This document shows positions 4,069 to 41,654 of a stretch of DNA of 50,245 nucleotides, piece by piece. Positions within the stretch are counted from its first letter, which is position 1. Every line of letters begins with the position of its first letter. The stretch comes from Tychonema sp. LEGE 07203 (GTDB lineage: Bacteria > Cyanobacteriota > Cyanobacteriia > Cyanobacteriales > Microcoleaceae). The stretch spans positions 1-50,245 of the forward strand of contig NZ_JADEXD010000024.1 of assembly GCF_015207285.1 (NCBI RefSeq), given 5' to 3'. Below the pieces are notes generated by a model. The model saw only the letters and a list, made by a program, of their open reading frames with translations. It had not been told where the DNA came from and searched no databases. Both the position numbers and the translations under genes were made by a program.

Positions 4069-4144
4069 CGCTTAGCCTCGGCGAAAGCCGAATATTGGTG
4101 CTACATCAATATTAACGGCAACTATAGCACGTCCCGTTCATGTT

Positions 4145-5047
4145 TTAACTATTTCTCAATGCTCCACCTGCGAGGGCGGTCAAAATAGCTACGCCAAAGG
4201 CCAGTCTATACCACACAAACACCCACATATTTTGAGTTTGTAGGAATTTCATCAGCCAGGCGATCGACAAATAAGAAAATATAAACGCCGAAATCGTTCC
4301 CACTACCAAAGCGGGAACTCCAGCACCGCCGATTCCTTCTCCCAAAGCACTCTTCAATTCCACTAATCCCGCCAGAGTAATTGCCGGAATTCCTAATAAA
4401 AAAGAAAACCGCGCGGCGGCGGCTCTTTCCAATCCCAGAAACAATCCTGCTGTTAGGGTGGAACCCGATCGCGAACACCCCGGAATCAAGGACATTGCTT
4501 GACCTAATCCCATCACAATACCGTCTTGGACGGTTAGTTTTTCATAAGTGCGATCGCGCGTGCCAAATTTTTCGGCTGTTGCTAGCAGCAGCGACATCAC
4601 GATCGAAGCAATGGCGATGCTTGCCAAACTCCTCAGAGGCGACTTGTCAAAATCGGGAACCAATATCTTGATTAGCAACCCAAAAAAGACTATAGGTATT
4701 GTTCCCAAACCAATCCCCAAAGCCATTTTAAACTCTTGGGATTTGTAGTCGCGCTGCACCGCAGCGTTAACTGCACCAAAAGTTATATTTGTCAAGTCTT
4801 TCCAGAAATACCAAAGTACGGCGACAATGCTGCCTAACTGAATCACAGCAGTGTATGCTACACCCGGGTCGCCCCATCCCAGGGCGATCGGCACTACCTT
4901 CAAATGAGCGCTGCTACTAATTGGTAAAAACTCTGTTAATCCCTGTACAATTCCTAAAACAATCGTCTTTACAAAATTGAGTGGAGCGGGCCCGCCAACA
5001 TCAGCAGCCGGGGTTTGGGCGAGGAATGCGTCAAGCAAAGCTATCAT
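4145..5047 (-). CDS. uppP: Undecaprenyl-diphosphatase
   Basis: UppP (BacA) removes a phosphate from undecaprenyl diphosphate at the membrane, recycling the lipid carrier of peptidoglycan and polysaccharide synthesis. The 300-residue protein carries both family signatures: EFLPISSSAHL at 39-49 (acidic and serine motif) and PGCSRSGST at 189-197 (the conserved arginine motif). Several hydrophobic helices span the length, as expected for an integral membrane enzyme. The ATG at 5047 gives a short N-terminal extension before the first helix at about residue 25; no clear Shine-Dalgarno is visible. The next gene on the same strand begins 76 bases downstream. Confidence 0.93.
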   Translation of the reverse strand: MIALLDAFLAQTPAADVGGPAPLNFVKTIVLGIVQGLTEFLPISSSAHLKVVPIALGWGDPGVAYTAVIQLGSIVAVLWYFWKDLTNITFGAVNAAVQRDYKSQEFKMALGIGLGTIPIVFFGLLIKILVPDFDKSPLRSLASIAIASIVMSLLLATAEKFGTRDRTYEKLTVQDGIVMGLGQAMSLIPGCSRSGSTLTAGLFLGLERAAAARFSFLLGIPAITLAGLVELKSALGEGIGGAGVPALVVGTISAFIFSYLSIAWLMKFLQTQNMWVFVWYRLAFGVAILTALAGGALRNS

Positions 5048-25945: not shown

Positions 25946-26287
25946 TTACATCGAAGGACGGTTAACTCGAATCAATTTACCACTCAAAGTATCCAGGGTA
26001 GAAATAGCATCATTAATTCGCGTCGCCTGTCTTTCCCAGTTGTTATCTTGAGTACAAATAATAATACCAGCATGGTCGGGTTGCGATCGATGCAGTCGAA
26101 TAAAATCACCTCGATTGAGAGTCAAAACTGCTCGCTCATTACTCGCTGCAAAAGCCAATACATCCTCATCAGGAATTCCTAATCCTGCGTTTCCGGCTTC
26201 TTGAACTGTTAAAACATCGTCACCTAAAGGTCGCAGAAACTCAACTACTGGCAACGGATACTGTTCGTCTGCATAAATTCGTGCCAT
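25946..26287 (-). CDS. DUF5615 PIN-like toxin, pair 1
   Basis: This 113-residue protein matches DUF5615, the PIN-like/Mut7-C-type toxin family: DEQYPLPVVEFLRPLGDDVLT with acidic residues, PDEDVLAFA, and AVLTLNRGDFIRLHRSQ. It should be an RNase-like toxin of a type II TA module. It follows its DUF433 partner with a 3-base gap on the same strand. It is a paralogue of the toxin at 26713-27054: both are 113 residues and align without gaps. Whether it is active cannot be judged. Confidence 0.85.
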   Translation of the reverse strand: MARIYADEQYPLPVVEFLRPLGDDVLTVQEAGNAGLGIPDEDVLAFAASNERAVLTLNRGDFIRLHRSQPDHAGIIICTQDNNWERQATRINDAISTLDTLSGKLIRVNRPSM

Positions 26288-26290
26288 GTT

Positions 26291-26617
26291 TTAGGCTTCC
26301 TCATTTTCTTTAATTGCAGCTTCAATTTCTTCTGGGTAAGCATCAGCATAAGCCCAAGCATTGACTAAATCAGCAGCCGTCAAATGGGGATAGCACTTAA
26401 AAAGTTCAGCATCGCTGCATCCGAGACGGCGATAACCCACAAGTACCCAAACTTGTATGCGAGTATTGCCAACACAGGCATCGCCGCCACACACGCCGGG
26501 AGTCTTTTTAATCCCTAGAGAACCGTTGCTTAAAGTTTGAAGTAAAATTTCTATAGCCGCTGCTTTATCGGCTGAATTTAAGGAGGCTAGATCGATTTTT
26601 AATTCGGTGAGTGTCAT
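26291..26617 (-). CDS. DUF433 antitoxin, pair 1
   Basis: A 108-residue DUF433 protein, with the core TPGVCGGDACVGNTRIQVWV (residues about 39-58) and LTAADLVNAWAYADAYPEEI near the C-terminus. It should bind DNA and neutralise the DUF5615 toxin encoded just downstream; only 3 bases separate its stop from the toxin start. The N-terminal part (MTLTELKIDLASLNSADKAA) is a helical extension. It is paralogous to 27058-27384, the antitoxin of pair 2. Confidence 0.85.
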   Translation of the reverse strand: MTLTELKIDLASLNSADKAAAIEILLQTLSNGSLGIKKTPGVCGGDACVGNTRIQVWVLVGYRRLGCSDAELFKCYPHLTAADLVNAWAYADAYPEEIEAAIKENEEA

Positions 26618-26712
26618 TATTTATTCCTATTCGTTGGGGAATATATGTTTAATATTTTAGCTTAAATCTAGATTTGGCGATCGCGCCCAGGCCCCGCAAG
26701 CTACGGTTTTTT

Positions 26713-27054
26713 TCACCTCGGCGGACGAATTACTCGAATCAATTTACCTGTGAGATTTTCGACTGTAGAAATAGCTTCATTAATGAGTGTAGCTGATCTC
26801 TCTGTATTCAAATCTTCTTTGCAAATAATGATACCATTATGGTCAGGTTGCAAACGATGCAGGTGTCTAAAATCATCCCAATTGCGCGTCAAAACGGCTC
26901 GATTGTGGCCAATAGCAAAAGCTAATACATCTTCATCAGGAATCCCCAGTCCACCATTTCCAGCTTCCTGCACTGTCAAAACATCGTGACCAAAAGTTCG
27001 CAGTAATTCTACGATTACCAGTGGAAAATTTTCATCTGCATAAAGACGCACCAT
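26713..27054 (-). CDS. DUF5615 PIN-like toxin, pair 2
   Basis: This 113-residue protein is the paralogue of 25946-26287. Shared blocks include VLTVQEAGNGGLGIPDEDVL and LTGKLIRVIRP. The N-terminal acidic motif is YADENFP, as in the DUF5615 family. It lies 3 bases after its DUF433 partner, the same gap as in pair 1, consistent with a tandem duplication of the whole module. Confidence 0.85.
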   Translation of the reverse strand: MVRLYADENFPLVIVELLRTFGHDVLTVQEAGNGGLGIPDEDVLAFAIGHNRAVLTRNWDDFRHLHRLQPDHNGIIICKEDLNTERSATLINEAISTVENLTGKLIRVIRPPR

Positions 27055-27057
27055 TTG

Positions 27058-27384
27058 TTAATTTTCCTCATTTCTAGCGATCGCAGCTTCAATTTCCTCT
27101 GGGTGTGCCTCAGCATAAGCCCAAGCATTCGCCAAATCTGCTGCACTCAAATGAGGAAAGTCTTGCAAAATTCGCACATCATTTGCACCCAGAAGGCGAT
27201 AATTTACCATCGACCAAACAGGTATGCGAGTCTTAGCAATTCTAGCATCGCCGCCGCACACGCCCGGAGTTTTTTCGATTCCTTGCCAAGTATTGCTTAG
27301 ACTTTGGACTAATAGCTGTATTGCCTGAGTTTTTTCACCGGGAGTTAAGGCAAGTAGTTGCTTTTCTAATTCTTTCAGTAGCAT
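27058..27384 (-). CDS. DUF433 antitoxin, pair 2
   Basis: A 108-residue DUF433 protein with the core TPGVCGGDARIAKTRIPVWS and LSAADLANAWAYAEAHPEEI. It is the same length as the pair 1 antitoxin and aligns end to end. It is the upstream member of the second tandem module; the pair 1 and pair 2 modules are separated by only 95 bases. Confidence 0.85.
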   Translation of the reverse strand: MLLKELEKQLLALTPGEKTQAIQLLVQSLSNTWQGIEKTPGVCGGDARIAKTRIPVWSMVNYRLLGANDVRILQDFPHLSAADLANAWAYAEAHPEEIEAAIARNEEN

Positions 27385-27444: not shown

Positions 27445-27954
27445 TCATCCCTCCGAGTCCACCTGTTGAACCTGTTCCAAGGTTAGCCGCAGCACCTCTG
27501 CGATTTGCTCGTCGCTCAAGCCAAACTGCCGTAACTTACCAATTGTTTCGATCTTGGCTTCATCGTTTGCCTGCTGAAAGTCAGGATGTTTAGGCGGATT
27601 TTCCTCTGGGGTAGCTGTGGGGCGATCGGAACAGACGTTGATGTAGCCAATAATGTTGCTATTACCAATAGTACAATCCGAGATATTCAGATTTCCTTGC
27701 CGATCGAGAACAGATTTAAGATTACCTTTATCAACAGGTTCATCAAAGGCTTGAGATAACATTTGTAAAAGTTCGTAACCCACATCTTTAACGTGACCTT
27801 GTGTAAGACGATAAGTGTCTGCAATCTCAGTATACTTTTGTTGTTTCAGAGTTCCCTCAATAATTCCGCGCTGCAAGTCATTTAGACGCTTGCCTGTCTT
27901 GGCATAGACAACTTTATCTACAAATTCCAATACCTGGTGAGTGTCCATCAGCAT
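27445..27954 (-). CDS. vMAP-type HTH protein (vWA-MoxR-associated N-terminal HTH), stand-alone
   Basis: Residues about 5-85 (FVDKVVYAKTGKRLNDLQRG ... YTEIADTYRLTQGHVKDVGY) match the N-terminal HTH domain that cyanobacteria usually carry at the head of large NTPase/effector proteins of vWA-MoxR-associated conflict systems. Here it stands alone in a 169-residue protein. After a linker with DRQGNLNISDCTIGNSN, the C-terminal tail (about 137-164: IGKLRQFGLSDEQIAEVLRL) resembles tails of cyanobacterial Rpn-like proteins. It is divergent from the nuclease-like operon at 28133 and faces phased direct repeats, so it may be a local regulator. ATG at 27954 and 27948 are both possible. Confidence 0.7.
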   Translation of the reverse strand: MLMDTHQVLEFVDKVVYAKTGKRLNDLQRGIIEGTLKQQKYTEIADTYRLTQGHVKDVGYELLQMLSQAFDEPVDKGNLKSVLDRQGNLNISDCTIGNSNIIGYINVCSDRPTATPEENPPKHPDFQQANDEAKIETIGKLRQFGLSDEQIAEVLRLTLEQVQQVDSEG

Positions 27955-27980
27955 AGATGTGAGAGAACTGGCGTTATTAT

Positions 27981-28060
27981 ACCCGACTTTATCCGTCTAT
28001 ATCCGTCCCGATCCGACTTGCACATCAAAGGTTAGAAAAGATCCGTCTTTTTCCGCTTTT
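27981..28060. promoter_or_regulatory. 10-bp-phased direct repeats in a divergent promoter region
   Basis: ACCCGACTTT, ATCCGTCTAT, ATCCGTCCCG and ATCCGACTTG start at 27981, 27991, 28001 and 28011. Two more, ATCCGTCTTT and TTCCGCTTTT, start at 28041 and 28051, still in the same 10-base phase. One helical turn per unit puts every copy on one DNA face. The repeats lie between the HTH gene and the nuclease-like operon, so they look like an operator of one or both. Confidence 0.7.
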
Positions 28061-28132
28061 CAGATTGTGAGAGAAAACTCTACTATATGAAAGGTAAAGT
28101 TATGAAACGTAGCTTGACAGGAGAAAGTAGCT

Positions 28133-29398
28133 ATGAGTGGAGGACTGTTCGACTGGGTTGGCGAAGTCGTTACTGGGCTCGGCTCTGAGATTGCTGAAGC
28201 TTTGGGCTTTGATGATGCTGCTGGTAGTAACTCAGGGGACGGACAGGAAAAAAGCAGTAACAGCGATCGAGAAAGAGGTAGAGCTAGTTATCAACAGGGA
28301 GAAGACTTGGAGGTATACACAGAGGAAAAGCTCGAAAAGTTTGGATTAAATGCTGTTCAGGTTCCTCGTAACTTCCTTTATAATGAGACATTTGAACAGT
28401 ACGGCAGACCTACTCAAGTCGATGTCACCATTGATGATAACAATGACAACGAAGTAGCAATAATAGAGTGCAAAGCTTACACAACAAAATGGAATGATGT
28501 GGATCAAGCTCAACGGCTAGTTCATGTAGCCAAGGAAAGAGGAATTCCCCTAATTTTTTCTACTTCTGATGGAACTACAGACTGCTTTGGCTCTCGTGTC
28601 AAAGAAGTTTTGAATGAAAATCAGTGCTTCGTAATCTCTCCCGATAATATCTTCTTTGCCGATCCATCTGATGTCAAAGAAAATGGCATTACGTTGGGAC
28701 TTCCTCCTGAAATTAAACCTCACTGGAATAGTAACAGTAGTGATAGTGGAGGAGAATCGTTATCGAGTGATGGTGGAGGAGAAGCATTACTTGGTGGCTT
28801 CATATCATCATTTGTTGGCTTTTTTGGGAGCAGTTCCGACTCTGAATCAAGCGATAGTTCTGATTCCAATAGCAGTGATTCTAGCGATAGTGGTGGCTCT
28901 TGGGATTTGTTCGGTAATTGGTTCAGTGATAGCTCTGACTCTGAATCAAGCGATAGTTCTGATTCCAATAGCAGTGATTCTAGCGATAGTGGTGGCTCTT
29001 GGGATTTGTTCGGTAATTGGTTCAGTGATAGCTCTGACTCTGAATCGAGTGATAGTTCTGATTCCAATAGCAGTGATTCTAGCGATAGTGGTGGCTCTTG
29101 GGATTTGTTCGGTAATTGGTTCAGTGATAGCTCTGACTCTGAATCAAGCGATAGTTCTGATTGCAGCAGTAGCGACTCTGACTCAAGTTACAGTTCCCAC
29201 TCTGGCTCAAGCTACAGTTCCGATTCTGGAAGTAGTGATTCTAGCGATAGTGGCGGCTCTTGGGATTTGTTCGGCGGTAGCTCTTACTCTGACTCAAGCT
29301 ACAGTTCCGATTCGGGAAGTAGTGATTGTGGAAGTGGGGATCGTGGCGATAGTGGCGGATCTGATAGTAGCTCTAGCAGTACCGAGAGTTGGTGGTAA
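28133..29398 (+). CDS. PD-(D/E)XK-like restriction-endonuclease-fold protein with Ser/Asp repeat tail
   Basis: In this 421-residue protein, residues about 55-170 look like a Mrr/PD-(D/E)XK nuclease core: D97 in QVDVTI, then E112 and K114 in AIIECKAYTTKW, with QAQRLVHVAKERGIPLIFST after it. From about residue 200 it becomes a Ser/Asp-rich tail, with a 33-residue unit (GGSWDLFGNWFSDSSDSES and more) repeated about three times. The start MSGGLFDWVGEVVTGLG is amphipathic. A Shine-Dalgarno AGGAGA precedes ATG at 28133. It is the first gene of a four-gene plus-strand run. The nuclease call is inferred from motifs; I cannot tell whether the substrate is DNA, RNA or neither. Confidence 0.7.
   Translation: MSGGLFDWVGEVVTGLGSEIAEALGFDDAAGSNSGDGQEKSSNSDRERGRASYQQGEDLEVYTEEKLEKFGLNAVQVPRNFLYNETFEQYGRPTQVDVTIDDNNDNEVAIIECKAYTTKWNDVDQAQRLVHVAKERGIPLIFSTSDGTTDCFGSRVKEVLNENQCFVISPDNIFFADPSDVKENGITLGLPPEIKPHWNSNSSDSGGESLSSDGGGEALLGGFISSFVGFFGSSSDSESSDSSDSNSSDSSDSGGSWDLFGNWFSDSSDSESSDSSDSNSSDSSDSGGSWDLFGNWFSDSSDSESSDSSDSNSSDSSDSGGSWDLFGNWFSDSSDSESSDSSDCSSSDSDSSYSSHSGSSYSSDSGSSDSSDSGGSWDLFGGSSYSDSSYSSDSGSSDCGSGDRGDSGGSDSSSSSTESWW
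28838..29148 (+). repeat. 99-bp in-frame tandem repeats in the Ser/Asp tail
   Basis: TCTGAATCAA starts at 28841, 28940, 29039 (TCGA variant) and 29138, exactly 99 bases apart. The units are almost identical at the base level and encode 33 residues each, with GGSWDLFGNWF followed by SD/SS runs. The fourth copy decays into a related but diverged stretch. The near-identity implies recent expansion or homogenisation. Confidence 0.92.
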
Positions 29399-29424
29399 CA
29401 CTTGCTTTTTATGGGAAGGAAGCA

Positions 29425-29538
29425 ATGGATAAAGCTATCTGGCAACAAAATAAATTTTCGGCAAAGGTAAGCGACTACATAATCCTAGTAGCACAGGGCA
29501 ACATCCTAAATAGTGAGACTTGCAGTGTGGTTTTATGA
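29425..29538 (+). CDS. 37-residue peptide coupled to the downstream membrane-protein gene
   Basis: The frame MDKAIWQQNKFSAKVSDYII LVAQ..., 37 codons, starts at 29425 after GGAAGGA, a good ribosome site. It ends with TGA at 29536-29538, overlapping the ATG of the next gene at 29535 as ATGA. Such coupling is typical of real co-translated genes. No domain is recognisable. It could also be only a leader that controls translation of the next gene. Confidence 0.5.
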   Translation: MDKAIWQQNKFSAKVSDYIILVAQGNILNSETCSVVL

Positions 29539-30149
29539 CTCAACAACCAGTTATTAGACAAGAGACTGATAGCGGACACAATTTTGAGAGTGTTCTCGCT
29601 CAACTATCGGAAAAAATCAGAAAAAGCAAATGGGCGAGGTCTTCCTTAGATACCATAGTTACAGATGGTTTGGAAGTTGCCAAGGAGACTGACGCTATTT
29701 ACTCTAAGGAAGGAATCTTTACACAATTTAGGTTATACCTACTGTACAAAGTAGCTTTTGAAGTATGGTCATATCAACATCAAGCTATTCTCCATATTCT
29801 AGAAGCAGGTAAATCGGAACAGTTGAAAAAACATTCCCAGCTAGTTTTGCAGCATCACAATGTAATGAGCAATATGTTTTATAAGCTCAACCAGCTTGCT
29901 ACTGTCCCTGGCCCAAATAGCTTGAGAGAGCCTTGGTTATCAGTATGGACACAGACTATCGATGAATTGGCGAAATTCGTAGACATCCCAAAGGTTGATC
30001 CGGTAAAGCAAAAAAATCTAAATTTATTCAGATTTAAGTTGAGGATGAGACTACCGGGTATGTCTCCACAGACTATGTATGTCATTTTTTCAACCTTTTT
30101 ATTGGTGCTTGGAATACTGATTGCTACCCTACTACTGATTCATAATTGA
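29535..30149 (+). CDS. Tail-anchored membrane protein of unknown function
   Basis: The protein has 204 residues from ATG at 29535 (MTQQPVIRQETDSGHNFESV). It is soluble and helical up to about residue 178 and ends in one hydrophobic segment (VIFSTFLLVLGILIATLLL). An upstream TTG at 29520 would add 5 residues but lacks support, while the ATGA overlap with the 37-codon frame favours 29535. I recognise no family. The cytosolic part with a C-terminal anchor suggests it sits at a membrane and works with the four-helix protein 8 bases downstream. Confidence 0.65.
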   Translation: MTQQPVIRQETDSGHNFESVLAQLSEKIRKSKWARSSLDTIVTDGLEVAKETDAIYSKEGIFTQFRLYLLYKVAFEVWSYQHQAILHILEAGKSEQLKKHSQLVLQHHNVMSNMFYKLNQLATVPGPNSLREPWLSVWTQTIDELAKFVDIPKVDPVKQKNLNLFRFKLRMRLPGMSPQTMYVIFSTFLLVLGILIATLLLIHN

Positions 30150-30156
30150 GGAATAT

Positions 30157-30591
30157 ATGAGAGATAAAGGAATATCACCAATCTTAATTACTGGGTTTTC
30201 TTTTGGAATCCTGTGGGACTTCGTGACAACATTTTTAGGAGTAGTATCCATAGTTGCAGGCTCAAATTTTTCTATTTCTCTTAAGAACCTTGATACTAAC
30301 ACTTTTGGAGTCTACGGAATAGCTTTTGTTAGTACAGTTATAGTTTTTTGCTTCAACCTAATTACTAAAAATGTCTGGCAAGAAGCTAGTGAGGGCCAAT
30401 GGACATTAGTAGCACCTTGGTTGCTCTGCGTTTTTTTTGACTTCTTTACATCACTTGCTGGAAACTACAAATTTATACTTCCGGGTAGACAAAATGAAAT
30501 AGCTGTTATAGGTGTCGTATGGTTCATAACTTTACTCACTACTATCAGTCCAATGACTGTTTACTATTTAATTAAAGACTACGAGGATTAG
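30157..30591 (+). CDS. Four-helix membrane protein of unknown function
   Basis: A 144-residue hydrophobic protein with four apparent transmembrane segments: ILITGFSFGILWDFVTTFLG, FGVYGIAFVSTVIVFCFNLI, LVAPWLLCVFFDFFTSLA and IAVIGVVWFITLLTTISPM. It ends in YLIKDYED. It begins 7 bases after the tail-anchored protein with TGAGGAAT upstream, so it is in the same operon as the nuclease-like gene. No homologous family is recognised. A REP-derived terminator follows. Confidence 0.65.
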   Translation: MRDKGISPILITGFSFGILWDFVTTFLGVVSIVAGSNFSISLKNLDTNTFGVYGIAFVSTVIVFCFNLITKNVWQEASEGQWTLVAPWLLCVFFDFFTSLAGNYKFILPGRQNEIAVIGVVWFITLLTTISPMTVYYLIKDYED

Positions 30592-30624
30592 AACCGCTAG
30601 ATAGATATAAATCCTCAAAACAAA

Positions 30625-30655
30625 AACCCGGTTTCTTGGAGAAAGCGGGTTTTTT
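30625..30655 (+). terminator. Terminator-like hairpin made from a REP sequence
   Basis: AACCCG at 30625-30630 pairs with CGGGTT at 30646-30651, and GTTTCT/AGAAAG extend the stem with one mismatch. A run of T follows. The AACCCGGTTTCT core is that of the REP family, so a REP unit appears to serve as the terminator of the 28133-30591 operon. Confidence 0.7.
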
Positions 30656-30761: not shown

Positions 30762-31103
30762 ATGCAATTAGAAGATTACTTTGAATTTTTAACACAAGAA
30801 GATATCCGCATCAAAGGAACCCGCGTCGGTATCGAACACATTCTCTACGAATACATCCACCGCGGCCAAACTCCTGAAGCCATAGCTCAAAAATTTCGGA
30901 CAGTGACGATGGCTCAAGTTTATGCTACGATTTTGTACTATCTGGAAAATCCCAAAACAGTAGGTAAATATGTAGGAGATTGGTTAGAATATTGCCTCAA
31001 ATCTGAAGCTGAATACGATCGCAATCCATCACCTTTTGTCTTGAAAATGCGTCAGATTAAAGAGCAAAAGCAGAAATCTCAACAACTGGATCGAGTTTAT
31101 TAA
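30762..31103 (+). CDS. DUF433 antitoxin, pair 3
   Basis: A 113-residue DUF433 protein of a second subtype: MQLEDYFEFLTQEDIRIKGT then RVGIEHILYEYIHRGQTPEA and YATILYYLENPKTVGKYV. It lacks the VCGGD core of pairs 1 and 2. It resembles the antitoxin at 49518-49868 throughout. Its stop overlaps the toxin start as TAATG, indicating translational coupling. It starts 170 bases after the operon terminator, so it is a separate unit. Confidence 0.85.
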   Translation: MQLEDYFEFLTQEDIRIKGTRVGIEHILYEYIHRGQTPEAIAQKFRTVTMAQVYATILYYLENPKTVGKYVGDWLEYCLKSEAEYDRNPSPFVLKMRQIKEQKQKSQQLDRVY

Positions 31104-31465
31104 TGAGTGTCAAATATCTGTTAGACGAAAATATCGATCCTGAATATCGGGTGCAGCTTTTGTATCATCAATCCGATCTGGTTGTTTTGATGGTTGGTGA
31201 TGAAGGTGTTCCGCCGAAAGGAACTAAAGATCCAGAGATTTTATGTTGGTGCGAGGAGAATAACTTTATCCTTGTTACTAATAACCGACGTTCAATGCCA
31301 GTTCATTTGTCAGATCATACAGCCGAAGGTCGTCACGTTCTAGGAATTCTGACAATCCGCTTGAATGCAGATATGGGTAAAGTAATTGAGGAGTTAATTG
31401 AAATTGCCGGAGCATCTTTTGAAAATGAATATCAAGATCGGATTGAATTTATCCCGCTTATCTAA
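31103..31465 (+). CDS. DUF5615 PIN-like toxin, pair 3
   Basis: This 120-residue DUF5615-like toxin has the acidic start KYLLDENIDPEY, then ILCWCEENNFILVTNNRRSM and PVHLSDH. The NNRRSMPVHL block is shared with the toxin at 49178-49540. ATG at 31103 overlaps the antitoxin stop. It converges on the orphan antitoxin-like gene at 31486, with 20 bases between. Confidence 0.83.
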   Translation: MSVKYLLDENIDPEYRVQLLYHQSDLVVLMVGDEGVPPKGTKDPEILCWCEENNFILVTNNRRSMPVHLSDHTAEGRHVLGILTIRLNADMGKVIEELIEIAGASFENEYQDRIEFIPLI

Positions 31466-32339: not shown

Positions 32340-35300
32340 ATGAATAGCAACGGACTGCCAGCAAAACAAGGCCTTTACGATCCGCAGTTCGAGCACGACG
32401 CTTGCGGAGTCGGGTTCATCGTACACATGAAAGGAAACAAATCCCACGAAATCGTCGAACAGGGACTAACAATCCTGCTGAACCTCGACCACCGGGGGGC
32501 CTGCGGCTGCGAACCCAACACCGGAGACGGAGCGGGAATTTTGATGCAAGTGCCGCACAAATTCATGAAAAAAGTAACAGCGGCCCTCAACATTGAACTT
32601 CCAGAAGCCGGCGAGTACGGAGTTGGCGCGATTTACTCATCGCCAAATCAGACGGAACGCGAAAACGGCAAACGCATATTTGAGGAAATCGCGGCAGAAG
32701 AAGGCCAAGAAGTGCTCGGCTGGCGCGAAGTTCCCACGGACAACTCATCCCTCGGCGACACCGCCAAATTTAGCGAACCCTTCATGCAGCAAGTGTTCCT
32801 CCGGCGCGCCGCCGGTATCGACGAGGCTGCCTTCGAGCGGAAACTGTACGTCATCCGCAAACGCGCTCACAACGCCATCCGCACAACGCAAGTAGACCCC
32901 TACTGGTATAATTCCACACTCTCCTGCCGGACGATCGTCTACAAAGGAATGTTAATGCCGGTGCAAGTGGGAGATTACTATCGGGACCTCCACGACCCCG
33001 ACATGGAAAGCGCTCTAGCCCTAGTTCACTCGCGCTTCAGCACCAATACATTTCCGAGTTGGGAACGATCGCACCCTTACCGCTACATCGCCCACAACGG
33101 CGAAATCAACACCATGCGCGGCAACATCAACTGGATGCACGCGCGGCAATCCTTGTTCGAGTCGGAGTTGTTCGGAGACGATTTAAAGAAAATCCCGAAC
33201 TTAATCAACATCGAAGGTAGCGACTCGACAATCTTTGACAACGCTTTGGAATTGCTATATTTGGCCGGGCGTTCTTTACCCCACGCCGTAATGATGATGA
33301 TTCCCGAACCTTGGACGGCCCACGAGTCCATGAGTGACGAGAAAAAAGCTTTCTACGAATACCATTCCTGCTTGATGGAACCTTGGGACGGCCCGGCTTC
33401 GATCGCATTTACCGATGGTACTTCGATCGGCGCAGTGCTCGATCGCAACGGTTTGCGGCCTTCCCGCTACTGCGTCACCAAAGACGACTTAGTAATTATG
33501 GCATCCGAAGCCGGAGTTTTGCCGATCGCCCCAGAAAGAATCCTATCAAAAGGCCGCCTGCAACCGGGGCGGCTGTTCCTAGTAAATACCGAGGAAGGCC
33601 GCATCGTTTCTGACGAAGAAATTAAGACCAAAATCGCCACAGAACACCCGTACCGCCAGTGGATTGACCAGCACATGGTCGAGATTGCCAAACTACCAGA
33701 TGCGCCAGCAGTCGCAGAATCCGACCCCGAAACATTGATCCAGCGCCAAATGGCTTTTGGCTACACCTTTGAAGAACTGCGGTTGCTGTTAGCGCCAATG
33801 GCAACAAACGGCGTGGAAGCTGTCGGGGCGATGGGTGCAGATACGCCGCTAGCCGTTTTGTCGAACAGACCAAAACTGCTTTACGAATACTTCCAGCAAC
33901 TGTTTGCTCAAGTTACCAATCCGCCGATCGATTCGATCCGCGAAGAAATTGTCACTTCTGCCGAAACTACGATCGGCGCTGAACGCAATTTGCTGAAACC
34001 GGAACCGGAAAGCTGTCATTTAATCGAACTGAAAACACCAATTCTCAGCAATGAAGAATTGGCTAAACTCAAACAGGTAAAAACAGGTAATTTCCGCTCT
34101 ACTACACTGCCGATTTTGTTCGACCCAAAAACAGGAGTAAAAGGTGTAGAACAGGCGTTAGAAGAAGTATTTGCAGCAGCAGATAGCGCAATCGCCTCTG
34201 GGGTGAATATCATCATTTTGAGCGATCGGGGCATCAATTCCGACAAAGCCCCAATTCCCGCGCTGCTGGCGGTTGCGGGCCTCCACCACCACTTGATCCG
34301 CCAAGGTACGCGCACGCGGGCGGGACTCGTGCTCGAATCCGGCGAACCGAGGGAAGTGCATCACTTTGCGACACTTATTGGATATGGTTGCGGCGCAATT
34401 AATCCGTATTTGGCCTTCGAGACGATCGCCGATTCGATCCAACAAGGTTTGCTGCTAAATGTCGATTACAAAACAGCTTGCAAAAACTACATCAAAGCCG
34501 CAACCAAAGGCGTGACGAAAGTTGCCTCAAAAATCGGGATTTCGACAATTCAAAGTTATCGCGGCGCGCAGATTTTTGAAGCAATTGGCTTGAACAAATC
34601 CGTAGTCGATAAATACTTTGCTTGGACAGCTTCCCGGATTGAAGGTGTAGACTTGGAAGTCATCGCCCGAGAAGCAATTTTGCGCCACACCCACGCCTTC
34701 CCCGAACGCCCCAGCAGCGGACATACTCTCGATGTCGGCGGCGAATATCAGTGGCGGAAAGAAGGCGAAGCCCACTTGTTTAGCCCGCAGACAATTCACG
34801 CGCTACAACAAGCAGTTCGCGAAGGAAGTTACCCGCTTTTCCAAAAGTATTCCGCCCTGGTAAACGAACAAAACCAGCAGCATTTTACCTTGCGCGGTTT
34901 GTTGCAATTCAAGCAGCGGGAATCAATCCCAATTGAGGAAGTCGAACCCGTGGAATCTATTCTCAAACGCTTTAAAACTGGGGCGATGAGTTACGGTTCA
35001 ATTTCCCAAGAAGCCCACGAATCTTTGGCTGTAGCGATGAACCGCATTGGTGGTAAATCGAACACCGGTGAAGGTGGCGAAGATCCGGAAAGATATACTT
35101 GGACAAACGATCGCGGCGACTCGAAAAACAGCGCGATCAAACAAGTTGCTTCCGGGCGTTTCGGCGTTACCAGCTTGTACCTTTCCCAAGCCAAGGAACT
35201 GCAAATCAAGATGGCGCAGGGGGCAAAACCCGGAGAAGGCGGACAGTTGCCGGGTAAAAAAGTATACCCGTGGATTGCGAAAGTACGGAACTCGACTCCT

Positions 35301-36926
35301 GGTGTGGGTTTGATTTCGCCTCCTCCTCACCACGACATTTATTCGATCGAAGATTTGGCCGAATTGATTCACGACTTGAAAAATGCCAACCGGGAAGCGC
35401 GGGTTAGCGTCAAATTGGTGTCGGAAGTGGGAGTCGGGACGATCGCCGCTGGGGTTGCGAAGGCCCACGCCGATGTCGTGTTGATTTCCGGCTACGACGG
35501 CGGTACCGGCGCATCGCCGCAGACTTCGATCAAACACGCGGGATTACCTTGGGAGTTGGGATTGGCCGAAACTCACCAGACTTTGGTACTCAACAATCTC
35601 CGCAGCCGGATTGTTGTCGAAACCGACGGACAAATGAAAACCGGTCGCGATGTAGCAATTGCTGCCTTGCTTGGTGCGGAGGAATTCGGATTTGCTACCG
35701 CGCCGCTGGTGACATTGGGCTGCATCATGATGCGCGTATGTCACCTGAACACTTGCCCGGTGGGTGTTGCAACCCAAGATCCGCTGCTGCGGAAAAACTT
35801 TACCGGCGATCCGGATCACACGGTAAACTTTATGACCTTTGTCGCCCAGGAAGTCCGGGAAATTATGGCGCAGTTGGGTTTCCGCACGCTGAATGAAATG
35901 GTGGGGCGTACCGACGTTTTGGAACCTCAGCAAGCTGTGGCGCATTGGAAAGCTAAGGGTTTGGATTTCTCGAAAATCCTTTACCAGCCGGATGTTGGGG
36001 CGGATGTCGGGCGCTACTGTCAGATGGCGCAGGATCACGGGTTGTCCAAGTCGATCGATATGACTGTGTTGTTGGATTTGTGCAAAGGTGCGATCGAAAA
36101 CGGCGAAAAAGTGCACGCCAAACTGCCGATTACCAACATCAACCGCGTTGTGGGCACAATTCTCGGCAACGAAATCACCAAACGCCACTGGGAAGGTTTA
36201 CCCGATGACACCGTGCACCTGCACTTCCAAGGTAGCGCGGGACAAAGCTTTGGCGCATTCGTACCCAAGGGAGTCACCCTAGAGCTCGAAGGCGAAGCCA
36301 ACGACTATCTGGGCAAGGGCCTCAGCGGCGGCAAAATCATCCTGTATCCGTCGCCGGCTTCTACCTTTGTCGCAGAAGAAAATGTGATTGTCGGCAACGT
36401 GGTGCTTTACGGAGCCACCGCTGGCGAGGTTTTCATCCGGGGGATGGCGGGCGAACGTTTTGGAGTCCGCAACTCCGGCGTGAATGCCGTAGTTGAAGGT
36501 GTGGGCGATCACGGTTGCGAGTACATGACTGGCGGCAAAGTTGTAGTTTTGGGTGAAACCGGGCGCAATTTTGCAGCGGGTATGAGTGGCGGTGTTGCTT
36601 ACATTTTGGATGAGGCGGGGGATTTTGCTACTCGCTGCAATATGTCGATGGTGGATTTAGAAAAATTGGAGGATGTTGAGGAAATTAGCGATTTGCGACA
36701 GTTAATTCAAACTCATGTTGATTTGACTGGAAGTGCGAAAGCATCGAAGGTTTTGGCAAATTGGGATGCGATGCTGCCGGTGTTTGTGAAGGTGATGCCG
36801 CGGGATTACAAGCGGGTGTTGCAGGCCATTGAAAGGGCGATCGCATCGGGTTTAAGCGGTGATGATGCGCTGACGGCTGCGTTTGAAGAAAATGCTCGTG
36901 ATGTCGCCCGAATTGGCGGTAGCTAA
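32340..36926 (+). CDS. gltB: Glutamate synthase large subunit (ferredoxin-dependent type likely)
   Basis: GOGAT converts 2-oxoglutarate plus glutamine to two glutamates, the second step of ammonium assimilation. In this 1528-residue protein the N-terminal amidotransferase begins after propeptide cleavage at C22 ([10 protein letters not shown]). The FMN/synthase domain carries the 3Fe-4S motif [12 protein letters not shown] with C-x5-C-x4-C spacing, and the C-terminal beta-helix domain has the repeated GxGxxGG pattern. No gltD (NADPH subunit) lies nearby, which fits a ferredoxin-dependent enzyme, but the two types cannot be separated with certainty by eye. The region just after the stop is the first REP array. 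Confidence 0.93.
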
Positions 36927-37644: not shown

Positions 37645-38211
37645 ATGCCACGTCGCCAAGTTATCTTACAAACGGGTAATTATTACCATGTTTATAACCG
37701 AGGTAATGACCGTCAGCTTATTTTTTTTGAACGAGAAAACTATATTTATTTTTTACGCCTATTAAGACACCATCTGATTACTAATGGTGTCGATATAATT
37801 GCCTATTGTTTGATGCCGAATCACTATCATTTATTAGTTTACCTAAAAACAGATCGTTTTTCCAAGTTGATGCAGTCATTTACTCTATCTTATGTTAAGG
37901 CTATCAATAAACGCTATCACAAGGTGGGTTCACTATTTCAGGGAAGGTTTCAGGCGATTCATGTAGATAGAGAAGAATATTTATTACACCTAACTCGTTA
38001 TATTCACTTAAACCCTGTTGCGGCTAATATAGTTAAAAAAGCAGAAAACTGGGAGTTTTCCAGCTATCAAGAATATATTGATTTGCGGCGGGGGAGTTTA
38101 CCTAAGATAGATCGAGTGCGATCGCAATTTCAGTCAGCAGATGCTTATCGCTACTTTTTAGAAGACTTAACTAGCGATAAATTAATCCAGCATTTAACCT
38201 TTGAAGAATAG
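37645..38211 (+). CDS. REP-associated tyrosine transposase (RAYT, Y1_Tnp)
   Basis: A 188-residue IS200-type Y1 transposase of the RAYT group. The HUH metal motif is H60-x-H62 in MPNHYHLLVY, and the tyrosine helix is SYVKAINKRYHKVGSLF, with the nucleophile probably Y83 or Y91. HLNPVAANIV and WEFSSYQEYI are typical RAYT segments. RAYTs bind and cleave REP hairpins in single-stranded DNA and are thought to spread them. REP arrays adjoin both ends: the stop at 38211 is 4 bases from the first unit of array 2. Start MPRRQVILQTGNYYHVYN is canonical. Confidence 0.93.
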   Translation: MPRRQVILQTGNYYHVYNRGNDRQLIFFERENYIYFLRLLRHHLITNGVDIIAYCLMPNHYHLLVYLKTDRFSKLMQSFTLSYVKAINKRYHKVGSLFQGRFQAIHVDREEYLLHLTRYIHLNPVAANIVKKAENWEFSSYQEYIDLRRGSLPKIDRVRSQFQSADAYRYFLEDLTSDKLIQHLTFEE

Positions 38212-38215
38212 TCAA

Positions 38216-38770
38216 AATCCAAGAAACCGGGTTTCTGCGACAATCTTCGCATCATCACGCCCGATCTAGGAAGAAACCCGGTTTCTGAGCCCCCGCGCCA
38301 ATCCAAGAAACCGGGTTTCTGCGATAATTGTGGCATCATCACGCCCGATCTAGGAAGAAACCCGGTTTCTGAGCCCCCGCGCACAATCCAAGAAACCGGG
38401 TTTCTGCGACAATCTTCGCATCATCACGCCCGATCTAGGAAGAAACCCGGTTTCTGAGCCCCCGCCCACAGAGCCCCCGCGCACAATCCAAGAAACCGGG
38501 TTTCTGCGATAATTGTGGCATCATCACGCCCGATCTAGGAAGAAACCCGGTTTCTGAACCCCCGCCGAGCCCCGCGCCAATCCAAGAAACCGGGTTTCTG
38601 CGATAATTGTGGCATCATCACGCCCGATCTAGGAAGAAACCCGGTTTCTGAGCCCCCGCCCACAGAGCCCCGCGCCAATCCAAGAAACCGGGTTTCTGCG
38701 ACAATCTTCGCATCATCACGCCTGATCTAGGAAGAAACCCGGTTTCTGAGCCCCCGCCCACAGAGCCCCG
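38216..38770. repeat. REP array 2: six ~84-100-bp paired-palindrome units
   Basis: Units with the same AGAAACCGGGTTTCT / AGAAACCCGGTTTCT arms begin at 38216, 38300, 38385, 38485, 38579 and 38677. The loops differ from array 1 (CATCATCACGCCCGATCTAGG, in two variants TCTTCG and TTGTGG) and the linkers are longer (CACAGAGCCCCGCGC), giving 84-100 base spacing. Array 2 follows the RAYT stop directly and ends against the XisI remnant at 38777. Confidence 0.95.
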
Positions 38771-38776
38771 GTGCGC

Positions 38777-38860
38777 GCAGGAATTCCCAAGGAAGATATT
38801 GTGTTAGCCTTTCACGAGCTTGGAATGCGGCAGTACACAGATTTTGCAGCAGTTTCCTAG
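38777..38860 (+). pseudogene. C-terminal remnant of a XisI family protein
   Basis: The reading AGIPKEDIVLAFHELGMRQY then TDFAAVS, stop at 38858-38860, matches the C-terminus of XisI-type proteins (fdxN-element excision controlling factor family), which end around GVPKEDIVLGFxxPxxRxxTxFA. The 5' part is missing; the frame is cut off by the end of REP array 2. It is a 28-codon fragment of a gene of about 110 codons. Confidence 0.75.
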
Positions 38861-38975
38861 CACTTCATTGATGGGAAAATCAAAAGCTCGATCGCACTTG
38901 ATTCAGATGTCATCTTAACTAGCAATCCAAATGCTATAATACAAGATTAATCTAAAAATTAAAATTAGTTAATTA

Positions 38976-41654
38976 ATGAAAGCCGAAACTTGCAAACTCT
39001 GGCTGGCTACGATATTTTGCAGCCTGACTCCGATCGCCCCTGGCACCGCTGAAATAGTCCCCGATGCCACGCTACCAGTCAATACCACGGTAATTGTCAA
39101 CGACACTAATAGCATTATACAGGGCGGGACGCAAGCCGGTAACAATCTATTTCACAGTTTTCGAGAATTTTCACTTCTGGCTGGGGAAACGGCGTTTTTT
39201 AACAATTCCACAGATATCCAAAATATTTTGACCCGCGTTACGGGCGGCTCGATTTCTAATATTGACGGCGCAATCAAAGCTAACGGTACTGCAAATTTAT
39301 TTTTGCTGAATCCGAATGGGATTATTTTTGGCCCGAAGGCTTCATTAGATATCGGCGGTTCGTTTGTGGCAACTGCGGCGAATGCCGTGCTGTTTGGAAA
39401 TGGAAGCCAATTCGGCATCAATGTTTCGGGACAAAATACGCCGCTGCTAATAGTTAATGTTCCTCTGGGATTGCAGTACGGATTGAATCCTGGAAGTATC
39501 GTAAATCGATCGACCGATGGATTGCAAGTGCGATCGGGCAACAGTTTGATACTTGCGGGCGGCGATGTGAGATTGGACGGCGGAAAAATACTCGCTCCGG
39601 GCGGCAGAGTCGAACTCGCAGCCGTTGCGGGCGGGGAAACAGTCGGGCTCAACGCCTTCGGTAACAATGTGAGTTTAAATTTTCCCGCCCAGGTAGCGAG
39701 AACCGATGTATCTCTCACAAACGGCGCTGACGTGAATGTACGCGCCGGAGGCGGCGGGAGTATTGCTGTCAACGCTCACAACTTGAATATGACAGAAGGA
39801 AGTACCTTGCAGGCGGGGGTAGATGCGAAGTTGGGTGCCGATGGCGCCTTGGCGGGAGATATTAATGTTAATGCAACGGGGGCTATCTCTTTTGATGGAG
39901 TCGGTGACGAAGATGTATTCAGCGGTGCGTACAATCTGGTGAAACCCGAAACTATTGGTGAAGGGGGTAATATTAATATCACAGGCGAAGCACTTTCTTT
40001 TACTAATGGAGCTCAAGTAAAAGCCAGCACGTTAGGACAGGGAAATGCCGGTAGTGTTAACCTTCGCATTCGCAATGCCAGCTCCTTTGATGGTGCGGGT
40101 ACCAGTGGCACTCCCAGCGGCGTTTACAGCAGAGCGGAAGCTAACGAAGCAGTTGGTAATGGAGGAAATATTAACATCGCTACTGGTTCCCTTTCAGTCA
40201 CAAACGGTGCTGTGATTACAGCTAGCACTCAAGGACGTGGCAATGGAGGAAATCTCGATATTTACGTCCGCAACGATACTGTTTTGGATGGATTGGGGCC
40301 TCTACAGGAAATTACTCTACCATCTGGTCCGCTTCAATTCCAACAATCCTCCGGGCTGTTCAGCAGTGTAAAATTAACAGGTGTTGGTGAAGGCGGAAAT
40401 ATTCGCGTCACAACTCGATCGCTATCAATTGCAAATGGTGCTGTTATTGTTACTAGAACAGAAGGGCAGGGGCAAGCTGGAAATATTACAGTCAATGCTG
40501 CAGAGTTCGTGACTGTTGATGGGATAGGTTTAGATCAAACTTCTAGCTCTTTACTAGCCCCCACCGAACCAGGTGCGGGAGGTAGAGGTGGGGATATTAC
40601 AGTTAATACTAATATTTTTCGAGTTTCAAATGGAGCAGTTGTCAACTCTCAAACCCTTAACGAATATGATGGAGGAAATATTACCATTAATGCTAATATT
40701 TTTGAGGCTACTGGTGGCGGACAGGCGATCGCCACAACTAGCAGCAGCGGTCAAGCTGGTAATTTGACAGTCAATGCTGCTGACAAAATTGTTCTCTCTG
40801 GCAACGATCCATCTTTCAGCGATCGAGCCTCACTATTCAATACAAACATCGTCGGTAACAATGAAGGTCCCCCTAGCGGACTATTTGCCAGTACGGGGAA
40901 AGATTCCACAGGTGCAGGTGGCAATTTAAATGTTAGAACCGGTCAGTTAATTGTCCGAGATAGCGCCCAAGTTACTGTCAGTGCCGACGGCCAAGGATCT
41001 GCGGGAAACTTGAGCATTGCCGCCGACTCAATTCGTTTAGATAGCGGCGCAATTAAAGCCACAACTCAAGCCGGAAATTTCGGCAATATTACCTTGCAAA
41101 CTGGAAATTTGCAAATGCGCCGTCGCAGTCAAATTACAACTAATGCCTCTGGCACTGCAACAGGCGGCAATATTAATATCGAAGCTGGGAGTGTAGCTGC
41201 TTTAGAAAATAGCGACATCCGCGCCAATGCAATCCGAGGCCAAGGCGGAAATATTGTAATTAATTCCGAAGGTATTTTTCGCTCTTTTGACAGCGATATC
41301 GACGCGAGTTCAGAATTAGGAATTGACGGCAATGTCGAACTCAGAACCCCCGATATTGACCCCGTACAAGGATTGAATCTGCCACAAATCCCCGGAGTTC
41401 CGCCCCAGCCAACACAAGCCTGTCAAAATACCGGGTCGAGGGCAAGTCGGTTTGTGATTACCGGGCGGGGCGGTTTGTCGCCGACTCCCAGGGAGAGAGT
41501 CAGTGGGGGCGGTGAGAATGATTATGTGGCGGCTGAGTCTCTTGTGGAAGCTCAAGGCTGGATAATTAATGCTAAAGGTGAGGTAGAATTGGTTGCCAAT
41601 TCGCCGACTGTTGTGCCTTACAGCCCTGGGGCGGTGCCGCCTATTTGTCATTGA
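38976..41654 (+). CDS. Filamentous-hemagglutinin-type (TpsA) secreted protein
   Basis: This 892-residue protein has a signal peptide (about 1-25, cut near TPIAPGTA) and a two-partner-secretion TPS domain: NLFHSFREFSL at 57-67 and NPNGIIFG at 112-119. The middle is a long beta-helix with G/N-rich imperfect repeats (GGNINIxxGSLSVTNGAVI). The C-terminus (QACQNTGSRASRFVITGRGG, EAQGWIINAKGEVELVANSP) is the cyanobacterial-type tail of these adhesin-like proteins. It should be exported through a TpsB porin, but no tpsB gene is nearby. It probably acts in adhesion or filament aggregation. Confidence 0.9.
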   Translation: MKAETCKLWLATIFCSLTPIAPGTAEIVPDATLPVNTTVIVNDTNSIIQGGTQAGNNLFHSFREFSLLAGETAFFNNSTDIQNILTRVTGGSISNIDGAIKANGTANLFLLNPNGIIFGPKASLDIGGSFVATAANAVLFGNGSQFGINVSGQNTPLLIVNVPLGLQYGLNPGSIVNRSTDGLQVRSGNSLILAGGDVRLDGGKILAPGGRVELAAVAGGETVGLNAFGNNVSLNFPAQVARTDVSLTNGADVNVRAGGGGSIAVNAHNLNMTEGSTLQAGVDAKLGADGALAGDINVNATGAISFDGVGDEDVFSGAYNLVKPETIGEGGNINITGEALSFTNGAQVKASTLGQGNAGSVNLRIRNASSFDGAGTSGTPSGVYSRAEANEAVGNGGNINIATGSLSVTNGAVITASTQGRGNGGNLDIYVRNDTVLDGLGPLQEITLPSGPLQFQQSSGLFSSVKLTGVGEGGNIRVTTRSLSIANGAVIVTRTEGQGQAGNITVNAAEFVTVDGIGLDQTSSSLLAPTEPGAGGRGGDITVNTNIFRVSNGAVVNSQTLNEYDGGNITINANIFEATGGGQAIATTSSSGQAGNLTVNAADKIVLSGNDPSFSDRASLFNTNIVGNNEGPPSGLFASTGKDSTGAGGNLNVRTGQLIVRDSAQVTVSADGQGSAGNLSIAADSIRLDSGAIKATTQAGNFGNITLQTGNLQMRRRSQITTNASGTATGGNINIEAGSVAALENSDIRANAIRGQGGNIVINSEGIFRSFDSDIDASSELGIDGNVELRTPDIDPVQGLNLPQIPGVPPQPTQACQNTGSRASRFVITGRGGLSPTPRERVSGGGENDYVAAESLVEAQGWIINAKGEVELVANSPTVVPYSPGAVPPICH

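Follow-up and report, generated by a model that had tools for sequence, protein, structure and literature searches.

A stand-alone HTH gene with a phased repeat array faces an exchangeable operon of putative effectors in Tychonema sp. LEGE 07203

The window is a stretch of 50,245 nt of DNA from Tychonema sp. LEGE 07203 (contig NZ_JADEXD010000024.1), whose genome comprises 6.6 Mb in 351 contigs. The locus described here (27445–30591) consists of a stand-alone gene for a small helix-turn-helix (HTH) protein on the reverse strand and four divergent open reading frames (ORFs) on the forward strand. A preliminary description of this DNA had named a lone HTH gene facing an operon, and all five of its ORFs were recovered on the strands claimed. 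The locus is genuine and bigger than that description had it.

The HTH gene (27445–27954, reverse strand) encodes a protein of 169 aa with a sigma-region-4-like HTH, a linker and a C-terminal HTH-like helix pair. In a Pfam scan, the matches to Sigma70_r4 (E=0.0013) and, at the C-terminus, to HTH_23 (E=0.022) were both below the cut-off. The -10-like element of the gene, TATAAT, lies at 27976–27981 (reverse strand). One nucleotide away begins a phased array of 10-bp units in two clusters (27983–28057), with units at 27983, 27993, 28003 and 28013 and at 28043 and 28053. A promoter-like element of the divergent operon, TTTCAG-N17-TACTAT, starts beside the last repeat (28058–28086, forward strand).

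The first ORF of the operon (28133–29398, forward strand, as are all the following) encodes a nuclease-like protein of 421 aa, the putative effector. Its first 47 aa (28133–28273; MSGG.F.W.G..., a helix in a low-confidence model) are constant between versions with different centres. The centre (28268–28711) is PD-(D/E)XK-like, with E60, D97, E112, K114 and Q125. The tail (28712–29398) holds Ser/Asp/Gly and W/F-rich motifs, ends in ...SWW and contains a 99-bp tandem repeat in 3.3 copies (28838–29162). A 37-codon ORF (29425–29538, MDKAIW...) is followed by a tail-anchored helical protein of type 1 (29535–30149, 204 aa). The last gene (30157–30591) encodes a protein of 144 aa with four transmembrane helices (4-TM), in which a D-x2-T-[TS]-x2-G motif is duplicated (D21, D95).

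For comparison, 54 loci with a stand-alone HTH gene were read (the window, two paralogues from its own genome and 51 from relatives), together with 13 fused or distant members. Forty of the additional HTH loci were picked by hand, mostly as best-scoring matches and not at random, and ten more were chosen for fusions and distant members. The 54 loci include one with a frameshifted HTH gene (L055) and one whose match contains a stop (L145). From 66 upstream regions with enough sequence, 32 non-redundant ones were chosen and used for the lag statistics, the -10 layout and the promoter pattern of the operon; all other counts ignore relatedness. Shuffles preserved dinucleotides in the lag test and mononucleotides in the checks of the promoter pattern and of plasmid and phage arrays.

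The shared repeats noted in the preliminary description are real and far exceed the shuffle expectation. Identical 5-mers, counted only if they held C or G, occurred 248 times at lag 10 in the 32 regions (5.7 in shuffles), 82 times at lag 20 (5.6) and 67 times at lag 38, the distance between the clusters (4.4). The upstream region of the window had five matches at lags 10 and 11 together (0.28 expected), which none of 200 shuffles reached, and 25 of the 32 regions were significant singly at p≤0.01. By eye, phased repeats were found upstream of all 54 stand-alone HTH loci. The layout of the HTH promoter recurred as well: in 26 of the 32 regions, a TATAAT-like -10 element (0–1 mismatch) and the reference start were 26–32 nt apart, and a repeat came 1 or 11 nt past the element (exceptions: L003, L117, L060, L152, L153 and L155).

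On the HTH side, the array occupies the spacer between -10 and -35. On the other side, its last unit adjoins TTTCAG-N17-TACTAT, whose -35-like hexamer is weak. A similar pattern was present in 18 of 31 non-redundant loci (2.9 in shuffles); this count is partly fitted because the pattern was written after the sequences had been inspected. A generic promoter scan listed no promoter at 28058–28086, and when the -10 of the operon was sought by its distance from the last CCG, no sharp peak emerged. From this geometry, the array may act in both directions, as negative autoregulation of the HTH gene and as control of the operon.

The HTH gene keeps its array where its neighbours change. Two paralogues of the HTH gene from the genome of the window (72% and 63% protein identity) have unrelated neighbours, yet the repeats in the ~100 bp upstream are kept. 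The motif TCCGNCN4TCCGNCN4TCCG (≤1 mismatch) had seven matches in this genome, six of them at four HTH genes (the window, C351, C234 and C266). The seventh lay at C138, and the stretch examined there contained no HTH; a reversed-pattern control gave two matches. As these four genes (genome G000) all carry CCG-type arrays, their products could bind one another's operators.

The repeat units covary with the HTH protein. With an acidic residue (Asp or Glu) after H-x-K/R in the recognition helix, 56 of 58 upstream regions carried three or more CCG units; L151, where the contig ends, and L059, with its weak array, were the exceptions. With Lys or Asn in this position, none of nine regions reached three CCG units. 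The units in this group were CCCAC/CCAAC in six cases, TATAC in L060 and TGAC-like in L146 and L149. These counts are of sequences and not of independent events, and the non-acidic state occurs in three unlike groups. Such covariation would be predicted if the recognition helix bound the array directly, and HTH and array very probably form a regulator–operator pair. Since the array is kept at HTH genes with unlike neighbours and covaries with the helix, the operator goes with the HTH gene and not with the cargo, a point overlooked in the preliminary description.

Homologues of the HTH protein were found in 135 of the 148 genomes searched, the genome of the window included. In tblastn, residues 2–115 matched the N-terminal HTH of five plasmid proteins annotated as NB-ARC, NACHT or WD-40 proteins (E 5e-6 to 2e-10), and the same HTH heads NB-ARC proteins in L059 and L060. 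Hence, the kinship with the heads of large conflict proteins stands, but the statement that this domain is normally only such a head was too strong, because stand-alone copies are common. This type of head is called VMAP-type. The array as a trait of the whole family was rejected, as none of the five plasmid genes and not the phage gene carried it; given this absence, it marks the stand-alone clade and some fusions. The only HTH match found in phage records was a partial one of 29% identity (Planktothrix phage PaV-LD, two records). Pattern-limited scans of viral contigs gave no confirmed relatives of the HTH, effector or 4-TM proteins. On a plasmid of Nostoc commune HK-02 (L165, 513–2153), an array-less HTH-WD40 gene and a gene with a subtilase-family annotation are arranged divergently.

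The link between the HTH gene and the operon survived the search for co-occurrence elsewhere, which the preliminary description had proposed as its own refutation. A hidden Markov model (HMM) of the constant N-terminus (first 51 residues) found eight loci in seven of the 148 genomes at E<0.001; the next-best match (0.017) was treated as noise. At a ninth locus (G026), the N-terminus was lost and the nuclease kept. At all nine loci with the constant N-terminus and/or the nuclease, these were divergent from an HTH gene of the same family as that in the window. Together with the position of the array, this co-occurrence makes it probable that HTH and array control the adjoining operon.

The assignment of E112 and K114 to a PD-(D/E)XK nuclease held up in part. 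The candidate catalytic pattern (E60, D97, E112, K114, Q125) was invariant in 9/9 sequences, down to 35% identity to the window, and nuclease profiles matched weakly: Mrr_cat in seven of nine members (best E 0.0016) and HSDR_N_2 in six of nine (best E 0.0011). A PDB sequence search with the nuclease profile gave no significant match (best chains E=0.17 and 0.7). The chain at E=0.7, a DUF1887 protein, aligned at the D...ECK region and was rejected as not significant.

The centre of the effector is exchanged between loci. It is PD-(D/E)XK-like in the window, L051, L052, L053, L054 and L055 and GIY-YIG-like in L056 and L057, where the core motif is visible (PF01541 in L056: E=1.8e-4, 22.2 bits against a cut-off of 22.6). 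Whichever nuclease type is present, the Ser/Asp tail is retained and ends in SW or SWW; in L055 it is frameshifted. The window and L057 are 93% identical over HTH gene and operator (679 aligned columns), yet their centres are different domains. L055 and L056 share 94% identity over 1703 bp, from the tail to beyond the 4-TM gene, and 88% over 686 bp of HTH gene and operator, with no DNA match between their nuclease domains. L070 has a short N-terminal piece and, behind it, a DUF6232 protein and a further small protein. At L113 (G056), ~25 bp past the -10 of the HTH gene, a shortened array runs directly into a remnant of the Ser/Asp tail, as if a deletion had removed the front part of the effector gene.

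The genes for the tail-anchored and the 4-TM protein were adjacent in all eight genomes with a tail-anchored match. Types 1 and 2 of the tail-anchored protein align as homologues in hhalign (probability 95.5%, E 1.3e-8), and the PD-(D/E)XK domain occurs with either type (window and L053). The pair also has other partners. It faces HTH-NB-ARC fusions in L059 and L060 (E=4.5e-13 and 1.5e-11), is divergent from HTH fusions in L102 and L103 (HTH profile E 8e-20 to 9e-16) and faces a 167-aa protein in L062 that has no Pfam match and falls outside the HTH profile. L061, L063 and L064 have the 4-TM gene preceded by a short gene, both some way off from a divergent HTH fusion; L104 has the pair but no HTH of the window family. 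In L102 (3528–4136) and L103 (3642–4301), a Ser/Asp/Gly/Trp-rich protein of 203–219 aa with no recognised nuclease domain precedes the pair; it resembles the effector tail of the window by eye, and the L102 protein had no Pfam match.

The model of the 4-TM protein is all-helical (mean predicted local distance difference test, pLDDT, 74) and had no fold match in the PDB at E≤0.001. With the window protein as query, it was found in 14 of 148 relatives; a profile found it in seven of 386 genomes sampled across the phylum. None of its relatives was confirmed in viral contigs and none was found in plasmids. Neither membrane protein of the window matched a Pfam family above the cut-off. Two candidate matches were rejected: RT_UG13a (DRT) for the tail-anchored protein (E=5e-4, recurring in one of six homologues and taken as chance) and an SPW repeat for the 4-TM protein (E=0.86).

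The 37-codon ORF had been described as a coupled peptide gene, which was not borne out. It aligns to the first codons (MDKxIW) of the 177-aa tail-anchored gene of L053 and L055–L057, and in the related DNA ahead of the type-1 gene the reading frame spans 37 codons in the window and in L051, 28 in L052 and 30 in L054, so the length is not conserved. Judged from these alignments, the ORF is probably what remains of the 5' part of the alternative tail-anchored gene, left behind when modules were exchanged.

At 43 of the 54 loci, a divergent ORF (≥75 aa) began 70–350 bp from the HTH start. The divergent ORFs of these loci (up to three per locus within 1.1 kb) fell into 43 BLASTP families at 1e-6, some of which are surely not real cargo. 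At one site, defined by a common left marker and a pntB-like gene, three cargos were found: PD-(D/E)XK in L054, GIY-YIG in L057 and another operon in L058, the first protein of which has no Pfam match. At a livM-like site with 12 loci, the divergent ORFs shared a family in one pair only (L115, L122), apart from a short ORF common to L109 and L115. The names pntB, livM, citZ, adenylate kinase, transposase and 'secreted' for neighbouring genes were assigned informally, in part by eye. The divergent operon is an exchangeable cargo, which the preliminary description had overlooked.

Other effector-like cargos include a trypsin-like protein and a Roc-type GTPase. In L141 (G131, 3870–4919), a CCAAC-type array faces a patatin that matched a PADLOC phospholipase effector (8.3e-72). 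In L133, L136, L138 and L139, from four genomes of one genus, the HTH gene faces one family of putative membrane-tethered GTPases, with the Roc match in L133. In L153 (G096, 1527–2866), the HTH gene is a distant stand-alone member of the family. It has a phased array, and opposite it lie genes for a precursor-like protein of 72 aa and for an MvdD-like ATP-grasp protein (PF21068, E=3.1e-5, 24.5 bits against a cut-off of 27), an arrangement known from microviridin-type peptide clusters.

The locus is flanked by DUF433/DUF5615 gene pairs, two on the left (25946–27384) and one on the right (30762–31465). The pairs are thus present on both sides, as had been noted; as a specific sign of the system they are unsupported. 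Similar pairs were also seen by eye beside other HTH loci. Farther along the window (37645–41654), an IS200-like transposase is followed by a large protein with a TPS secretion domain.

On balance, we lean towards an autoregulated switch of filamentous cyanobacteria that carries an exchangeable conflict effector cassette. The HTH protein would bind the 10-bp-phased array along one face of the DNA. When bound, it would cover its own -35/-10 spacer, giving negative autoregulation, and reach the -35 of the divergent operon, so that one array sets both promoters. A signal would then lead to expression of the cargo operon. The first product would be a nuclease flanked on either side by constant sequence, the N-terminus and the disordered tail. 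As membrane partners, the tail-anchored and 4-TM proteins may position the nuclease at the membrane, or may themselves be a membrane-active effector. Nuclease domain and membrane pair would be swapped independently by recombination in the constant flanks. Such independent replacement of modules is as expected for a conflict system (against phages or competitors) under diversifying selection. The cassette exchange is visible in the DNA; a conflict function is, in our judgement, evenly poised, and the 'defence or stress' role of the preliminary description is plausible.

Several results weigh against this switch. The cargo at the citZ-like site was the same in L002, L068 and L069, and also in L106, where the marker was not found. 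Several cargos do not resemble defence genes: secreted proteins, an adenylate kinase and a transposase, so judged by eye, and the MvdD-like ATP-grasp cluster, on a profile match below the cut-off. The six window proteins scanned matched no PADLOC defence model convincingly, the DRT match (5e-4) recurring in one of six homologues. All nuclease profile matches of the window protein were below the curated cut-offs. The AlphaFold (AF2) model of the nuclease was poor (mean pLDDT 44), and its fold-search matches were therefore disregarded. Three distant nuclease homologues (L065–L067, 39–41% identity) lie in another context without the HTH. Seven of the 32 regions failed the phasing test singly (L002, L053, L070, L059, L146, L149 and L152); as L146 and L149 are among them, the TGAC-type arrays are weak. 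The array was absent at the five plasmid HTH genes for NB-ARC, NACHT and WD-40 proteins and at one phage gene. The promoter pattern of the cargo was absent in 13 of 31 loci, among them L113, L117, L134 and L142 and all tested fusion and distant members except L060.

The same array could serve activation in the manner of MalT, in which the HTH, bare or fused to NB-ARC, assembles on the array when triggered, activates the cargo and blocks its own promoter. The last repeat abuts the weak -35-like hexamer of the cargo promoter, the membrane pair faces HTH-NB-ARC fusions in L059 and L060, and the HTH of the window weakly resembles sigma region 4; moreover, the portions of PMC11119718 consulted report cyanobacterial sigma-70-type proteins with NB-ARC or TPR_MalT domains. 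The HTH of the window, however, has no recognisable sensor domain, and the array is weak in L059 and of a different motif in L060. This leaves activation quite conceivable, if a little doubtful. An addictive module, with the HTH as antitoxin and the divergent operon as toxin, would fit the small DNA-binding partner and the autoregulatory-looking operator, the DUF433/DUF5615 pairs close by and the breakage of both halves in L055. It is improbable, as the 54 loci have divergent ORFs of 43 BLASTP families and the HTH gene of L113 persists next to a mere relic of the tail.

Export of the nuclease with its Ser/Asp tail against neighbouring cells, with the membrane pair as exporter or immunity, also seems rather improbable. 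A swapped catalytic domain with constant ends on both sides is reminiscent of polymorphic toxins, as far as these are treated in the parts of PMC3482391 considered, and the tail is of low complexity. But the swapped domain is central and not C-terminal, no signal peptide was seen by eye, and the membrane pair is independent of the nuclease type, as PD-(D/E)XK occurs with both types of the pair (window, L053). Finally, the array might control the HTH gene only, and the neighbourhood would then be a recombination hotspot with ordinary accessory genes. The paralogues of the same genome adjoin unrelated genes, and in L107 the HTH gene faces an apparent housekeeping gene, both of which would fit. 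What makes this unlikely is the promoter-like pattern that adjoins the array on the divergent strand (18/31 against 2.9 by shuffling) and the orientation of the constant N-termini and/or nucleases, divergent from the HTH gene in 9/9 cases, the three distant homologues apart.

Under the favoured switch, an HTH gene beside a nuclease-like gene becomes a testable unit, with operator, candidate cognate residue and two promoter-like elements placed to the base. It could reveal how cyanobacterial conflict operons are silenced and released. The arrays can be used for finding more effector operons, and the conserved tail-anchored/4-TM pair is brought to light. A bolder idea, which we offer tentatively, is that the small HTH proteins are a plug-in regulatory head of cyanobacteria. 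Their specificity code would pair one helix residue with the core of the 10-bp-phased array, and whatever operon comes to lie next to them would gain the same conditional expression; the tail-anchored and 4-TM proteins would form a membrane effector unit, so far undescribed, to which exchangeable nuclease domains are joined.

Within one literature library, searches on phased operators, on stand-alone HTH proteins with STAND proteins, on defence in Microcoleus and Tychonema and on related subjects gave nothing that we recognised as the system of the window. ParR/TubR-type arrays consist of short direct repeats that follow the helical phase and are bound by small DNA-binding proteins. The array of the window is of the same kind, but it lies beside promoters in a chromosomal contig, and no partition or filament gene was found among the 28 window proteins scanned.

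The vWA-MoxR/VMAP systems are NTP-dependent conflict systems with effector exchange, Mrr-like REase effectors and membrane-proximal parts; they are frequent among multicellular prokaryotes, cyanobacteria included (Kaur et al. 2020, PMC7159879, in the sections considered). The locus shares with them the exchanged effectors and an HTH head related to those on NB-ARC, NACHT and WD-40 proteins. It differs from the systems described in those sections in that the HTH stands alone, with a phased operator. No vWA or MoxR match was found among the same 28 proteins scanned against Pfam; the remaining, mostly short ORFs and 32340–36926 were outside the scan. Effector exchange is also a theme of the TRADD-N paper (PMC8195603, likewise in part). 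The stand-alone HTH, the array and the tail-anchored/4-TM pair are not described in the parts of these two papers that were examined.

Polymorphic toxins, in the parts of PMC3482391 considered, likewise combine constant protein parts with exchanged catalytic domains. In contrast to these, the exchanged domain of the window is central between two constant ends, and no immunity-like gene tracks the catalytic domain. BrxR, as presented in the relevant parts of PMC9122601, is a WYL-domain regulator of phage-defence islands that binds 11-bp imperfect inverted repeats. Like BrxR, the HTH protein would be a small regulator of diverse defence operons, with repeats upstream of its own gene; unlike BrxR, it has direct 10-bp repeats, no recognised ligand domain and a divergent cargo. 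By this analogy, BrxR appears to be the nearest known regulator by role.

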